Notes under the pieces: model-generated
Seen by the model: only the letters and a program-made list of their open reading frames with translations
Databases searched by the model: none
Told to the model about the DNA's origin: nothing
Translations under genes and position numbers: made by a program
In this document: positions 2,202 to 44,162 of the stretch, in pieces
Position numbering within the stretch: position 1 is the first letter of the stretch
Layout: each line of letters opens with the position of its first letter
From: Microcaldota archaeon
GTDB taxonomy: Archaea > Micrarchaeota > Micrarchaeia > Burarchaeales > Fermentimicrarchaeaceae
Assembly: GCA_013425405.1 (NCBI GenBank)
Contig: JACCLF010000048.1
Span: forward strand, 1 to 45,854
Direction: 5' to 3'
DNA length: 45,854 nt

Positions 2202-3332
2202 ATGAGAGCCTATAAATTCAGGATATATCCCTCGAAGAAGCAGGAGGAACTTCTGAATAAACATCTGTGGCTAGCAAAGAAACTCTGGAATGAGTTGCTT
2301 GAACACTGCAAACAGACCTATGAAGACTTTGGCTACTTCCCAACAAAAAACACATCGCAACTGGTGGTAAAAAATTATGGCCTCTATTCTCAAACCCAGC
2401 AGGAGATTGCTCACAGAGTTTATAATGCAGTAATGAGGGTTTTCAAGCTGAGGAAGAAAGGAGTAAAATGCGGTTTTCCACGTTTCAAATCTTTTGACAG
2501 GATGAAAAGTCTGCATTACCCGCAGTTTGGCTTCTCCCTTGAAGAGAAACTCAAAGTAACTCCTTTTGGTGAGATTGCGATAAAGAAGCATAGGAATATA
2601 AAAGGAAAAATTAAGACACTGACTCTGAAAAGAGAAGCATCTGGGAAATGGTTTGCTGTTTTTTGCGTTGAAACACCAAAAGAGTTTCCAAAAGAAAACA
2701 AGGGAGGGACAGTTGGAATTGACTTGGGACTGAAGACATTTGCGACCTTATCAAATGGAATGATGATAAACAACCCAAGGCATTTCAAGAAATACGAAGA
2801 CAGACTTGCCTTCATCCAGAGAGAGCTTTCAAAAAAGAAGAAAGGCAGCGCCAGCAGGAAGAGGGCAAAGATAAGAGTAGCAAAACTGCATGAGAAGGTG
2901 GCCAACACAAGAGCAGACTTCCTTCACAAGATTTCAACTGAATTGGTGAATGATTATTCCTTCATTGCATCAGAAAAGCTTGCCTCACAGGAAATGGCAG
3001 AACAGCATTACGGCAAGTCCATCAACGATGCGGGATGGAGCATGTTTACAAGCTTCCTTGCATACAAGGCGGAAGGGGCTGGATGCAGAGTGGTGTTTGT
3101 AGACCCAAAGAATACTTCAAAGATGTGCAGCAGGTGCGGAAACATCAGAGATGACCTGACGCTCGGGGATAGGATATATACCTGTCCTGAATGTGGGTTA
3201 TCAATAGACCGAGACATGAACGCTGCATGTGTTATACTCATAAGAGCTACCGGGGGGCACCCGGGAAGTAACGCTTCTGGAAATGCAACAATAGTTGCGT
3301 CTGTGAAGGAAGAAGCCCACACCTGTTTATAG
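2202..3332 (+). CDS. tnpB: TnpB RNA-guided nuclease, copy 1
   Basis: TnpB is the compact RuvC-type nuclease ancestral to Cas12 and uses an RNA from the element's right end to cut DNA beside a short motif. The 376-residue protein opens with MRAYKFRIYPS. It has RuvC-I GIDLGLKTFA (Asp174), RuvC-II ASEKLAS (Glu258), a four-Cys zinc ribbon (Cys309, 312, 328, 331) and RuvC-III DRDMNAA, so the catalytic residues look intact. Residues ~115-350 are very close to copy 2, whereas residues ~30-110 (wedge/REC region) are much more diverged. The 3' end of the gene overlaps the probable guide RNA. A TATA-like TTTATAAAG within the left end lies about 30 bp upstream of ATG. Confidence 0.93.
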   Translation: MRAYKFRIYPSKKQEELLNKHLWLAKKLWNELLEHCKQTYEDFGYFPTKNTSQLVVKNYGLYSQTQQEIAHRVYNAVMRVFKLRKKGVKCGFPRFKSFDRMKSLHYPQFGFSLEEKLKVTPFGEIAIKKHRNIKGKIKTLTLKREASGKWFAVFCVETPKEFPKENKGGTVGIDLGLKTFATLSNGMMINNPRHFKKYEDRLAFIQRELSKKKKGSASRKRAKIRVAKLHEKVANTRADFLHKISTELVNDYSFIASEKLASQEMAEQHYGKSINDAGWSMFTSFLAYKAEGAGCRVVFVDPKNTSKMCSRCGNIRDDLTLGDRIYTCPECGLSIDRDMNAACVILIRATGGHPGSNASGNATIVASVKEEAHTCL

Positions 3333-8073: not shown

Positions 8074-9768
8074 TCAAGCCTTGGCACCAGGCTTCTCTTC
8101 AATGTAACTTTCCCGCATCGTCAGCGCACCATACTCTGTGAATACCCTCAGGATGCGGTCCAGCTTACCGCGGGCCAGAGACGGATTTAGATTTTTGAAA
8201 TGCTTGTTGAAAACCTCTTGTATATCATCCTTGCGAACCTCTCCCTTACTCTTTATCTCTTCTCCAACCTCCTCAAGGAACTTCCCCTCATCTGCAGCGC
8301 GTGTTGAAGCAAGATCATAGAAATCCTCATTGCCGAAGGAATACATGCGCATACTCCTGCCCTCACCTACTGGAGTTATCAAAAGCTTGCCATCCTCATT
8401 GATTCTGAATGTCGTGACATTCCCGGCTTTGAAACCCACTTTTTGCGCTATGTTTTTAGGAATCGCTGAGCTAAGCTGCTCTCCGTAGTCGCGGACTCTT
8501 TGCATAATTTTGCTTATACCTGGGTAATCTTCCGCCATTTTCAGCGACATCTTCTCTCCATCGGCAAACCACTCCCCACGCATTCCTGGCTTGAGATGCA
8601 AACTCTTGGACATCGAATTCGGTATCACAATTATATGTGAACTGCCACCTGCTTGAATTATCTTCGTTTGGTCTATAAATGACATATCCTCCGCTCCCAG
8701 CTCAGCCTTCCCACCATGGACCTCTAGGATGAGCTTGTCCGTTTCACCAGTCCAGGTGCAGCACATACCTCTGACAAGCCCGGCGGAGTTGACTATTTTT
8801 GTGGGAATTCCCACACTGTACTCATTATTAATGTTGGAATATCGGAGTTTCACAGTATTTGGCGATGCGCTTTCTGTTGGCTTTAAGGAAAGCTTGCTCT
8901 CGCCTTCAACCGACCACTGCATAACCATGCCTTTTGTAAGTTTCTTCAATCTAACCAGCTCTTTAGGGACTGTTACGTCTAATCCATTCACAAAGCCGAG
9001 TTTCACTGTGCGATGGAAGCTCTCGAGAGGAGTGAGCAGAAGAGAGTTGCCCTCTACAGTCCACTCGCACTGCATGTCCTGCTTCAGCTTCATCGATATC
9101 ATCAACTCCGTTGGAATTGTGACTCCGAATGATGTGCCCAGCTTCAAAACCATAGCTCTGTAGTGCACTCCCTCAAGCGGAGTGAATACAGCGGATTTTC
9201 CCTCAGCAGTCCAAGCTGCCTGTTTGCCGCCCTTCAGCCCCATTGTATCTACAACTTCCTTAGGAAAATTAATAGAAAAGTTGTCAGGATAAGTCTCTTG
9301 AATTTTTACCATCTGAGTGAAGACGCGCGGAGCTGGCTTTTTCAGACTCTCTGTTTCGGCATTCCTCCCCTCTCTTAAGAAGTGCGGGAAGAAAACCTCC
9401 TTGGGCGATTCAGAGAGATTCTGCAGCTGGGTTATGCTTCTTACGAATTCCGGGAGATTCTGCCTGTGCCTTTCTGCCAGCTTCTTATAAATCTCACTTT
9501 TGAATGCTACCTCCCAGCCGTGCATCCTGTATGAAGGGTCAAACCTAGTGGTCCAGACCTTTTCATTAATAACCTCGCTGACCTTCACTTCCTTCAGTCT
9601 TTTTTCTTGTGAAATAACCTCTATGCGGAGCTTGCTCTTCGCACTCTCATTTCCCCCGTCATTCCAGAAGGTGTGCTGCTCCTCCCCCGCATCAATTTTT
9701 TTCACTAGGCGCACCGTTTCTTCTCCAAAAACAGTGTTGACCTTTTTCTGCATGCTTAGATTACTCAT
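8074..9768 (-). CDS. large protein with six tandem AbrB/SpoVT-like repeats
   Basis: I do not recognise this as a named family. After an N-terminal region (1-145) of mixed charge, six repeats of ~45-50 residues follow (about 150-197, 204-247, 253-297, 304-350, 367-411, 421-466). Each has the AbrB swapped-hairpin pattern: beta strand, [IV]P+E[LV], a hydrophobic turn, then 'L..G....W...G..L.L.P'. A helical C-terminal domain (470-564) ends the chain. AbrB domains normally dimerise to bind DNA, so six in one chain could make three internal pseudo-dimers. A TATA-like TTAAATATATAAA at 9770-9782 lies immediately before the ATG, which suggests a leaderless start at the internal ATG 9753. The gene is divergent from tRNA-Ile. 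DNA binding is inferred. Confidence 0.7.
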   Translation of the reverse strand: MSNLSMQKKVNTVFGEETVRLVKKIDAGEEQHTFWNDGGNESAKSKLRIEVISQEKRLKEVKVSEVINEKVWTTRFDPSYRMHGWEVAFKSEIYKKLAERHRQNLPEFVRSITQLQNLSESPKEVFFPHFLREGRNAETESLKKPAPRVFTQMVKIQETYPDNFSINFPKEVVDTMGLKGGKQAAWTAEGKSAVFTPLEGVHYRAMVLKLGTSFGVTIPTELMISMKLKQDMQCEWTVEGNSLLLTPLESFHRTVKLGFVNGLDVTVPKELVRLKKLTKGMVMQWSVEGESKLSLKPTESASPNTVKLRYSNINNEYSVGIPTKIVNSAGLVRGMCCTWTGETDKLILEVHGGKAELGAEDMSFIDQTKIIQAGGSSHIIVIPNSMSKSLHLKPGMRGEWFADGEKMSLKMAEDYPGISKIMQRVRDYGEQLSSAIPKNIAQKVGFKAGNVTTFRINEDGKLLITPVGEGRSMRMYSFGNEDFYDLASTRAADEGKFLEEVGEEIKSKGEVRKDDIQEVFNKHFKNLNPSLARGKLDRILRVFTEYGALTMRESYIEEKPGAKA

Positions 9769-9813
9769 TTTATATATTTAAGCGAGTGGGAAAGCTCTCC
9801 CTAGACATCAATA

Positions 9814-9848: not shown

Positions 9849-9949
9849 GGGCCCGTAGCTCAGTTGGTCAGAGCGGCAGTCTTATACGACGCGCTCTTGC
9901 ACAAGTCTAGGAAAGCTGTAGGTCGAGAGTTCAAATCTCTCCGGGCCCA
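9849..9949 (+). tRNA. tRNA-Ile (anticodon UAU) with a 27-nt intron
   Basis: The acceptor arms GGGCCCG/CGGGCCC, a D arm GCTC/GAGC, anticodon stem GCAGT/GCTGT and T arm GAGAG-TTCAAAT-CTCTC fold cleanly, with discriminator A and no encoded CCA. The intron is 9887-9913, between positions 37 and 38. A textbook bulge-helix-bulge is visible: outer anticodon stem, 3-nt bulge AAA (9912-9914), 4-bp helix CTTA/TAGG (9881-9884 with 9908-9911), 3-nt bulge TAC (9885-9887) and inner helix GAC/GTC. Splicing after the second bulge base on each side gives loop CUUAUAA, so the anticodon is UAU, reading AUA. Most archaea instead use a CAU tRNA modified to agmatidine. Rpp21 follows 15 bp later. Confidence 0.88.
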
Positions 9950-30841: not shown

Positions 30842-32353
30842 GTGGTGTTGAGAAATGCCAGCCTGAATTTTCTCTTTGCACTGCTATTGCTAGTTATAAT
30901 TCCTTGTCAGGCAGACTCGTGCCTTGGTAACATCAATGCCACTCTTGGGGCAAACCCATCGTTCTTCAAGATGAGCAATCCAGCCAATCAGGGCATATCC
31001 AACATGAACATATCCGCTGCAGAAAAGTTTTACCTACTTGTGCACAGCGCTTTCTCAGAAGCTCCGCTTCTCCCCAGCATAATGAATTACAACCTGCTCA
31101 TGTCTTTTTCCTGCCCTCCTAATGGAACGCAGAGCATGGATGGGAAGTATATACACAATGCCTGGGTGCGTGCAATAACGGTCATGCCTTCAGTGACTGA
31201 CGGAGACGGCAACCGCTGGGCCCTTCCAAACGGCGAGGTGCTTGCTGCGCACAACTACTCTGTGCAGCTGCCGAGAAGCGCGACGAACGTCTACCCTGAC
31301 TGTGGTGTTGTATACACTCTCCTAAACTCAAGTGCTCATCTTTCCGTATACGCAAATGGCAATTATCTAGGGGATTCCGACCTGACCCGCTATGGGATAA
31401 ATTCCACAAATCTTAATGCTACCGCGCAGCTGTCTGTTTCGGCAAGCGTGAGGAGGGACTACTACGAGTCATACTGCTACTGCTGCAAGTCGAGCAAGGA
31501 AGGATGCGAGGAAACATGTTGCTACTGCAAATTCTCCAGCAGCGATGTGGATACTGACCAAGTCAATCTGCGCAGCTCCATCGACAGGAAAGTCTACAAC
31601 TTTGAAGCAGTTCCCAATATAACAATGCGGCAATGCCCGAATGGCAGCACCTCCGCAGCATCCGGCAACCTCTCATTGAACACCAGCGTCCCTGTGCAAG
31701 CCGTCTCAATATCTTTTGGTGAAGCCAGTTCCACGGTTTATGCATACGGGCTGGATATCCTGACAATTCTTGAACCGCATAATGCGCTTGAGGCGCGTTC
31801 TTTTGACCTCTGCAGCCACTCACCGCAGACATTCATAAGCGGCTACAGCATCTCGCCGAACCTAATACTGGTTAACTTCACCGGCATACCTCCGGAATAC
31901 GTGAAGTCCCCTTATGCTGGCATCATAGTGGTCGATTTGTTTGGGATACGGCACAACCTCACGAGCCGCGCATACATACTATGTCCCATCAACCCGCAGA
32001 TAAAACTCACCATACCCTGGCTTGTGGAAAACGGTTCCAACTTCCAGGTGTTTGTAACTTTATCCAAAGACGGCAGAGGCATCCCAAACAAGAAAGTCAA
32101 CCTCTACTACTCGGGGGAGGAATTCACAGGAGCTACCAACTCTGCGGGAGAGGTTGGCTTCAACCTCAAGGCAAACCAGAGCATAGTTAAGGCGGAGTCT
32201 GACTACGATGGAAAGTATGCCGAAGCAAGCGCAGTAGATATTCTTGTCGTATACGAGCAATCGATTATAACCTACTTTTTATCTCTTTTGGCATTGCTTT
32301 TTATCCTAGCTCTGAGCTATATTGCAGTTAGATTAGTGGGTGGTGGACTATGA
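30842..32353 (+). CDS. secreted, membrane-anchored glycoprotein candidate with Cys-rich insert
   Basis: No family recognised. 503 residues: a basic N-terminus and hydrophobic signal peptide (5-24), a long extracytoplasmic part with about fifteen N-x-S/T sequons, a Cys-cluster near residues 210-235 (YCYCC...CEETCCYCK, eight Cys in about 20 residues), an Ig-like C-terminal domain (PNKKVNLYYSGE...TNSAGEVGF), and a final transmembrane helix (~475-498) with a short tail. Start among GTG/GTG/TTG at 30842-30850, after GGAGGTG. Its stop overlaps the next start as ATGA, so the two are coupled. It is likely a surface structural or receptor protein and a substrate of the N-glycosylation genes downstream. 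Confidence 0.7.
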   Translation: MVLRNASLNFLFALLLLVIIPCQADSCLGNINATLGANPSFFKMSNPANQGISNMNISAAEKFYLLVHSAFSEAPLLPSIMNYNLLMSFSCPPNGTQSMDGKYIHNAWVRAITVMPSVTDGDGNRWALPNGEVLAAHNYSVQLPRSATNVYPDCGVVYTLLNSSAHLSVYANGNYLGDSDLTRYGINSTNLNATAQLSVSASVRRDYYESYCYCCKSSKEGCEETCCYCKFSSSDVDTDQVNLRSSIDRKVYNFEAVPNITMRQCPNGSTSAASGNLSLNTSVPVQAVSISFGEASSTVYAYGLDILTILEPHNALEARSFDLCSHSPQTFISGYSISPNLILVNFTGIPPEYVKSPYAGIIVVDLFGIRHNLTSRAYILCPINPQIKLTIPWLVENGSNFQVFVTLSKDGRGIPNKKVNLYYSGEEFTGATNSAGEVGFNLKANQSIVKAESDYDGKYAEASAVDILVVYEQSIITYFLSLLALLFILALSYIAVRLVGGGL

Positions 32354-33369
32354 AGCTGAACGTTCTGTTACTTTCAATTCTCGTCATTTGCATAGTTATA
32401 CATGGGGCATCGCAGCAAAACTCGACATCACCGCAGAATGCAACACAAGAAAGCATGCCCTGGATACAGGATATGATTGAAAAAGCAATTATGAATGCAA
32501 TCAACTCAACTTTACTGTCTGGATTTAATAGAGGGTTGGAACTAATGAATTTCCTTCTTGCATACAATGTCCCCCCAGAGTTAGCCAATATGCTCTCTTC
32601 CGTTCATATGGAGATCATAAAAATGCTTGCCCCCCTATACCTGCTTGTCCTGTCATGGAACGCAATTGAGGTAATGACCAGCGAGGTTATAATAAACCAG
32701 GCCAAAGCGCGCATAACCATCCAGAATTCAGTAGTGAGCATGGTGCTCGTTGCCTCTTCCCTTCAAATCTACAAATTGCTTCTCTCCCTGTCCCAGGGAA
32801 TTTCAAAATATCTTCTCTACATACAATTCGATTCAAAACTAGCTAATACAATAAGTGCTGTTGAAGTGGCGGGGGCCTTGGGAGCCTTTGCCGTCGTTCT
32901 ACTGCCGGCTGTGGAAATTCTAATAATACTGGTAATCCTATTCTTATTGATTAGGATATACATACTAGCAGTTGGGGTACTGCTCTTCCCAATTGGCATA
33001 TTCATGTATTTCTTCTCACCCTTGAAAAAATACGGCAAGTTGATAACGTCGGTTATACTATACTTCATGTTCATACAGGTAATAATAGCGCTTATGGTAT
33101 ACGTTATGAATGCACTTATGGCCGCGCCTCCCCAGTCTTTTGGCCCCATCCCAGCAGAAGATCTCATGAAACTAAGAGTTTTATTATATATAGGTGGCAT
33201 ATTCCTAATCATGATTGTTCCACTGGGCATATTGCTGCAACTGGTGCTCATAGTTGCATTCCCGGAGATAATGATTCCCATGTATGTCACATCTCTGGCG
33301 GGTGTTGCGGCGGGTACGACGGCAGCGGCTGGAAGCGTAGTGTCATCAAAACTAAGCGTGAGAGAATGA
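32350..33369 (+). CDS. polytopic membrane protein with VirB6/TrbL-like topology
   Basis: 339 residues: cleavable-looking signal (4-20), a polar N-x-S/T-rich segment, an amphipathic stretch (~40-85), then about six membrane helices (~87-105, 124-142, two or three in 165-215, 228-250, 275-312), ending in an Ala/Gly/Ser-rich tail. Signal plus amphipathic segment plus clustered helices resembles VirB6/TrbL or archaeal DNA-import (CedA-like) channel proteins. That is similarity of form only. It is translationally coupled to the secreted glycoprotein upstream and to the sugar-phosphate mutase downstream (ATGA overlap). Confidence 0.6.
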   Translation: MKLNVLLLSILVICIVIHGASQQNSTSPQNATQESMPWIQDMIEKAIMNAINSTLLSGFNRGLELMNFLLAYNVPPELANMLSSVHMEIIKMLAPLYLLVLSWNAIEVMTSEVIINQAKARITIQNSVVSMVLVASSLQIYKLLLSLSQGISKYLLYIQFDSKLANTISAVEVAGALGAFAVVLLPAVEILIILVILFLLIRIYILAVGVLLFPIGIFMYFFSPLKKYGKLITSVILYFMFIQVIIALMVYVMNALMAAPPQSFGPIPAEDLMKLRVLLYIGGIFLIMIVPLGILLQLVLIVAFPEIMIPMYVTSLAGVAAGTTAAAGSVVSSKLSVRE

Positions 33370-42904: not shown

Positions 42905-44129
42905 TTCACTGGAAAGTTACCCCCCTCCACGAGGTTTATAAAGGGAGAAATAGACTTAAATAACGTCTATGAGGGCTTACAAATTTAGAATATATCCTTC
43001 AAAGAAGCAGGAGGAGCTTATGAACACTCATCTTTGGTTAGCAAAGAATCTCTGGAATGAGATGCTTGCCTTTACCAAAGAGATTTACGACAATTACCAA
43101 AGATTCCCAACTAAAAAGACATTAAGGGAAATTGTCAAACAGTCAGGTCTCTTCTCTCAGGTTAACCAGGAGCTTGTAGATAGGTTGATTGATGCTCTTC
43201 ATAGAAAGATAGAGATGAAGAAAAAAGGAGAGAAAGGCGGCTTCCCGCGCTTCAAATTTTTTGACAGGATGAAGAGCTTATCATATCCACAATCTGGCTT
43301 TTGGTTGGATAAGAAACTGAAGGTCACTCCATTTGGAGAAATTGCAGTAAAGAAGCACAGGGACATAAAAGGTAAGATTAAGACACTGACTCTTAAAAGG
43401 GAAGGTTCAGGTAAATGGTTTGCAACCTTCTCTGTTGAAACTCCAGAAGAGATTCCAAGAGAAAACAGAGGAGAAGCAGTGGGAATTGACTTGGGGCTGA
43501 AGACATTTGCAACCCTCTCAAATGGAATAAGGATAAAAAACCCAAGACACCTAATGAAGCATGAGGACAGGCTTACCTTCATACAAAGGAAGTTCTCAAA
43601 GAAAAAGAAAGGAAGCGGCAACAGAAAGAAGGCAAAGATAAGAATTGCCAGATTACATGAGAAGGTAGCAAACACAAGAAAAGACTTCCTGCATAAAACA
43701 TCAACACAACTTGTCAATGATTATTCCTTCATAGCATCAGAAAAGCTTGCCTCAAAAAAAATGTCAGAAGAAAAATATGGCAAGCAGATAAGAGATGCTG
43801 GATGGAATATGTTTGCAGACATTCTTGCATACAAGGCGGAAGGGGCTGGATGCAGGGTTGTGTTTGTAGACCCAAGAAATACTTCAAAGATGTGCAGCAG
43901 GTGCGGAAACATCAGAGATGACCTAACTCTCTGGGACAGGGTGTATACCTGTCCCAATTGTGGTCTATCAACAGACAGAGATTTAAATGCTGCAGTAAAT
44001 ATACTCATAAGAGCTACCCCCGGGCAGGGGGGAAGTAACGCCTGCAAGTCCGTAAAGGAGAGAGATGTTGTATTGGCAACGTCTGTGAAGCAGGAAGCCC
44101 GCACCCTTCATGGGTGGGAGCATGTCACC
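42905..44129 (+). mobile_element. IS200/IS605-type element carrying only tnpB, copy 2
   Basis: Left end TTCACTGGAAAGTTACC at 42905 with a CCTC-CAC-GAGG stem and GAGGTTTATAAAG TATA block; right end hairpin CACCC-TTCAT-GGGTG (44102-44116) then GGAGCATGTCACC ending at 44129. It is the same family as copy 1 and the deleted copy. It lies between the SelB-like gene and the helicase without breaking either. No tnpA is present. Confidence 0.75.
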
Positions 44130-44162
44130 ATCAGCTATTGTACGGGTATTACTCACTGTTAA
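42969..44162 (+). CDS. tnpB: TnpB RNA-guided nuclease, copy 2
   Basis: 397 residues, the same architecture as copy 1: RuvC-I GIDLGLKTFA, RuvC-II ASEKLAS, zinc ribbon CSRCG...CPNCG and RuvC-III DRDLNAAVNIL, so probably active. The reading frame runs on through the right-end hairpin and 33 bp past the element's inferred end, so the last ~11 residues (after GWEHVT) are encoded by flanking DNA; copy 1 stops earlier. Residues 30-110 differ strongly from copy 1 while the rest is nearly identical. Confidence 0.93.
   Translation: MRAYKFRIYPSKKQEELMNTHLWLAKNLWNEMLAFTKEIYDNYQRFPTKKTLREIVKQSGLFSQVNQELVDRLIDALHRKIEMKKKGEKGGFPRFKFFDRMKSLSYPQSGFWLDKKLKVTPFGEIAVKKHRDIKGKIKTLTLKREGSGKWFATFSVETPEEIPRENRGEAVGIDLGLKTFATLSNGIRIKNPRHLMKHEDRLTFIQRKFSKKKKGSGNRKKAKIRIARLHEKVANTRKDFLHKTSTQLVNDYSFIASEKLASKKMSEEKYGKQIRDAGWNMFADILAYKAEGAGCRVVFVDPRNTSKMCSRCGNIRDDLTLWDRVYTCPNCGLSTDRDLNAAVNILIRATPGQGGSNACKSVKERDVVLATSVKQEARTLHGWEHVTISYCTGITHC
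44020..44129 (+). ncRNA. probable right-end guide RNA (omega/reRNA) scaffold of TnpB copy 2
   Basis: The segment includes GGAAGTAACGCCTGCAAGTCC, GGAGAGAGATG, TGAAGCAGGAAGCCC, the CACCC/GGGTG hairpin and GGAGCATGTCACC. The first three blocks recur in the deleted copy at 10328-10490. The guide would start at 44130. The 5' boundary is a guess. Confidence 0.55.

Follow-up and report, generated by a model that had tools for sequence, protein, structure and literature searches.

The AbrB-type fold is normally built from one unit per chain, with two separate chains forming the dimer. An archaeal open reading frame in which an initial annotation recognised six AbrB-like repeats in tandem therefore raises the questions of whether the repeats are of this type, how they would pair and what such a chain would bind. 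The frame lies on contig JACCLF010000048.1 of a Microcaldota archaeon (Micrarchaeota; assembly GCA_013425405.1, 0.95 Mb in 58 contigs); the window is the whole stretch analysed, positions 1 to 45,854 of the forward strand.

The gene and its start

The features of the gene are listed in Table 1. Translation probably starts at Met6, since this is where the TATA/start motif shared by the family ends and where the relatives begin in the alignment, and the gene is probably leaderless, to judge from the TATA box about 25 nt upstream of the ATG. It adjoins a tRNA gene and SRP54, a layout that is kept in the sister species. The tRNA gene, at 9849-9949 (+), has an apparent intron and was found by Rfam but missed by ARAGORN.

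Table 1. Features of the gene and its product, in window positions
Feature	Position	Strand	Evidence or remark
CDS	8074..9768	(-)	ORF without internal stop, 564 aa; 559 aa from ATG 9753
Family start motif, TTAAAT-N-TAATCTAAGC-ATG	9751..9781	(-)	6 exact genome matches; 0 for the reversed-pattern control
N-terminal domain (NTD)	9325..9753	(-)	no Pfam family; also carried by helical-repeat proteins
AbrB unit R1	9172..9321, residues 150-199	(-)	repeat profile, leave-one-out, two-unit model
AbrB unit R2	9022..9165, residues 202-249	(-)	repeat profile, leave-one-out, Pfam, two-unit model
AbrB unit R3	8872..9018, residues 251-299	(-)	repeat profile, leave-one-out
AbrB unit R4	8713..8862, residues 303-352	(-)	repeat profile, leave-one-out; followed by a 13-residue linker
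AbrB unit R5	8530..8673, residues 366-413	(-)	repeat profile, leave-one-out, Pfam
AbrB unit R6	8365..8517, residues 418-468	(-)	repeat profile; strongest lone Pfam match
C-terminal domain (CTD), helical	8077..8358	(-)	recurs on helical-repeat proteins, or straight after the NTD

An orthologue with 65% identity over the aligned part was found in Micrarchaeota isolate Sv174 (JACCLG010000042.1; G002:C20), where it too adjoins SRP54. Between the two genes dN is ~0.24 and dS ~1.0, with dN/dS at ~0.2-0.3 in all domains, and this purifying selection indicates a real gene. The same values bear on the suggestion that the family evolves fast without a single conserved function, by decaying or neutral duplications. 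Its paralogues are only 24-28% identical, its distribution inside the genus is patchy and one CTD copy (G002:C2) is interrupted by stops, all of which would suit such a history; the constraint on every domain, together with the conserved synteny and start motif, would not. Decay or neutrality is thus disfavoured at this locus by purifying selection, and we hold it to be the least probable of the explanations weighed here.

Six AbrB-type units

A profile built from the six proposed units placed them across residues 150-468, at 48-51 residues each. PF04014 (MazE_antitoxin) matched the whole chain with E=1.2e-13 and 51.2 bits, above its cut-off of 24.7, and the orthologue with 44.4 bits; isolated single units stayed under the cut-off, R6 being the strongest at 3.8e-5. 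In a leave-one-out comparison, a profile of five units was used to score the remaining unit against 1000 shuffles; R1 to R5 each beat all 1000 and R6 beat 998. Identity between units of the protein is only 10-40%, so the duplications are old. The profile search with the repeat unit that the initial annotation had proposed was run against the PDB with 34 units of the family, and ranks 1-5 were all taken by AbrB-family proteins (5itm, 2l66, 5itj, Abh 2fy9 and 7d2n; E 0.001 to 0.03); SpoVT, MazE and aspartate decarboxylase followed further down. Judged by sequence, the units are thus of the AbrB/MazE type, as first read. Pfam scans gave no family match for the NTD and none above cut-off for the CTD. 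A profile search of the CTD against the PDB returned designed helical proteins and scattered lysozymes on top, which was taken as an effect of composition.

A rival reading is an antitoxin-like array that would neutralise or sequester several MazF/Doc-like toxins or nucleases, and the NCBIfam and PHROG matches do include the doc_partner, ChpS and MazE antitoxin families. Every NCBIfam match, however, is under its curated cut-off, and no toxin-like ORF was seen by eye among the translations next to the gene, whose tRNA and SRP54 neighbours are the same in the sister species. We therefore consider this role highly improbable.

Relatives and unit counts

The initial annotation had also suggested looking for orthologues with other repeat counts, and the orthologue is one, with four units. 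Its second unit is a composite that begins as the first half of R2 and continues as the second half of R3; R4 is without a counterpart. Six more complete members were found, five with four units (C24 in the same genome as the window; C4 twice, C49 and C52 in G002) and one with six (G003:C12, without the NTD). In G002:C52 the third and fourth units are weak and an insertion is present. The unit counts are therefore even in all eight complete members (6, 4, 4, 4, 4, 4, 4, 6), from which it follows that the units probably pair inside one chain. We regard this as moderate evidence for within-chain pairing, the counts coming from related, non-independent proteins with only two inferred changes from four.

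Among the four-unit members, a unit on average resembles its positional equivalents in the other members more than any other unit. The units of the window protein map to positions 1, 1/2, 2, 3, 3 and 4, and those of the six-unit protein of G003 to 1, 2, 1, uncertain, 3 and 4. Since positions match across the four-unit members and differ between the two six-unit proteins, four units are probably ancestral and six were probably reached twice, by different routes.

Predicted pairing of the units

An AF2 model of R1-R2 was built from an alignment whose further rows were R3-R4, R5-R6 and the pairs of the orthologue. It has a pLDDT of 84 and a pTM of 0.77 and runs twice through a beta-beta-alpha-beta-beta order. 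The top five VIA-align matches are all MraZ entries (Z 9.6-10.9, rmsd 2.0-2.9, 87-91 of 103 residues), and the next fold, that of plant B3 DNA-binding domains, follows at Z <=6.4 (~6). Separate-chain AbrB dimers are absent from this list, an absence that carries no weight, since a one-unit chain cannot span a two-unit model. The swapped-hairpin fold with pairing expected by the initial annotation is thus borne out as a prediction for R1-R2, which would form one barrel within one chain; this pairing was in part imposed by the input, whose five rows were in-phase pairs cut to two units. Foldseek alone gave no match at E<=0.001 for this model, and a full-length AF2 model from a two-row alignment reached a pLDDT of 32; for these reasons we infer, rather than model, a like pairing of R3 with R4 and of R5 with R6.

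MraZ is a bacterial cell-division regulator with two SpoVT/AbrB units per chain that form one barrel, and in this respect, and as the nearest PDB fold, it is the closest known counterpart of the R1-R2 model. The window protein differs from it in having six units rather than two, in its end domains and in lacking AbrB-type arginines. Identity to MraZ is 10-12%, the Pfam and NCBIfam scans gave no MraZ match, and the gene is archaeal and outside a dcw cluster. With AbrB, MazE and SpoVT proteins (PF04014; for example 2l66 and 5itm) it shares the unit sequence and the beta-beta-alpha-beta-beta pattern, whereas those proteins normally have one unit per chain and dimerise between chains and the present family has 4-6 units and has not kept the DNA-contact arginines. 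AbrB units are a textbook case for a possible origin of double-psi barrels, in which a dimerising half-barrel would later have been fused into one chain; Coles et al. (2005) reportedly related double-psi beta-barrels such as VatN to AbrB by duplication and fusion. Those barrels likewise contain two AbrB-like halves in one chain, but the window protein has several fused pairs in series, its half-barrels still recognisable singly. If the pairing holds, the family would take this path one stage further, by serial multiplication of the fused pairs, with four- and six-unit versions in sister species; it would also offer a testable even-count rule and naturally occurring repeat modules for use in design. 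The open-access papers searched contained neither serial AbrB arrays in archaea nor AbrB together with Micrarchaeota, so that the array is apparently an undescribed variant of the AbrB/MraZ fold.

Exchange of the middle block

The NTD also heads helical-repeat proteins (G000:C40, G000:C48, G002:C30), the CTD also occurs on other helical-repeat proteins (G003:C13, G003:C18, G004:C27, G000:C23), and in G000:C17 the NTD is joined directly to the CTD with nothing between. Because the same ends flank helical repeats or nothing at all, the AbrB array is, on these domain orders, an exchangeable middle block in a genus-specific paralogous family. AIG1 and clathrin Pfam matches of the helical-repeat proteins were judged to be chance. 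Their repeats look mTERF-like by eye, but the Pfam scan contained no match to mTERF. Two adjacent ORFs of a distant Micrarchaeota family (L104 and L106 of G212:C6) each carry the CTD twice, and in one of the two it is preceded by a long array of ~33-residue helical repeats (NPSNLEKNIKTLE...).

Most members, whatever their middle block, are preceded by TTTAAAT, ~9 nt, CATAATTTARGC and ATG. Besides the window gene, the motif occurs on G000:C23, C35 (two), C41 and C50 and ahead of members in G002 and G003, and some of the six exact matches to its core precede other genes specific to the genus. The paralogous, genus-specific genes that share it come from several families without relation to one another; a cupin-like gene is among them, as is the C40 member's divergent neighbour. 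The genes that share it possibly form a common regulon.

In the mechanism that we propose, R1+R2, R3+R4 and R5+R6 would form three covalently linked MraZ-type swapped-hairpin barrels, each from two AbrB units, the equivalents of the two subunits of an ordinary AbrB or MazE dimer. The array would sit between the genus-specific NTD and the helical CTD, the end domains remaining constant while the middle block, barrels here and helical repeats in the sister proteins, would serve as an exchangeable ligand-binding platform. These proteins may constitute a new modular class in one Micrarchaeota genus. In such a class the same ends would enclose, as alternative binding blocks, either helical repeats or serial AbrB pairs with two, three or more barrels to a chain, and within-chain pairing would enforce an even number of units; we give this class slightly less than even credence. 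That the chain of three MraZ-like barrels serves as an intracellular scaffold for multivalent binding is the reading we somewhat favour.

Possible ligands

The initial annotation had offered a three-site DNA clamp or a nucleoid protein as functions. A multivalent DNA-binding regulator or nucleoid protein could recognise three adjacent direct-repeat boxes with its three barrels, much as repeated promoter boxes are read by an MraZ oligomer; MraZ recognises a series of GTG-containing repeats (PMC7761207). The best structural matches, MraZ entries (some with promoter DNA) and then plant B3 domains, agree with this, as does the charge of the chain, which is basic (pI 9.0), its array mildly so (8.8); some paralogous arrays, on the other hand, are acidic (pI 5.7-6.8). 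In AbrB, R8, R15, R23 and R24 are the arginines proposed to contact DNA (PMC4022651). Across 37 units of the family these positions hold K/R in only 24%, 9%, 0% and 19%, respectively, and in the window protein in ~3 of 24 cases, which makes DNA less favoured as a ligand and speaks against the clamp and the nucleoid protein. The comparison is not decisive, because the R15A mutant of AbrB retains DNA binding (PMC4022651); one-unit controls from the phylum often lack these arginines too. The DNA-binding regulator is accordingly rated unlikely, with a non-canonical nucleic-acid role possible for the family. For the scaffold that we prefer, a protein seems the more likely ligand, at about an even chance, and DNA or RNA a somewhat less likely one.

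Distribution and further observations

Multi-unit AbrB arrays were found in 3 of 295 sampled genomes of the phylum, all from one genus, and the NTD in 2 of 295, again in this genus; single AbrB genes occur in 224 of 290. In one genome (G001:C1) a 77-aa AbrB-type ORF is present in three copies, at 343498, 369487 and 395476. The copies lie at an exact spacing of 25,989 bases, which points to tandem triplication of a 26-kb segment or else to an artefact of assembly.

Beyond the phylum, tandem arrays were sought in collections of viruses, phages and plasmids and, by two pattern-based scans, in a collection of bacterial and archaeal genomes. A single-protein scan of the bacterial and archaeal genome collection returned no relatives, and a scan with the two-sequence alignment returned the orthologue only. 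The viral contig, phage and plasmid collections contained no relatives and so gave no indication of an origin from viruses or mobile elements, and a PADLOC scan gave nothing. Elsewhere in the window, two TnpB-like (IS200/IS605 OrfB) genes at 2202-3332 (+) and 42969-44162 (+) share a CxxC...CxxC motif and appear by eye to be close to each other in sequence. At 30842-33369 (+) a secreted Cys-rich membrane protein stands beside a multi-pass TrbL/VirB6-like protein, both recognised by eye, and the pair may be part of a type IV secretion-like apparatus.
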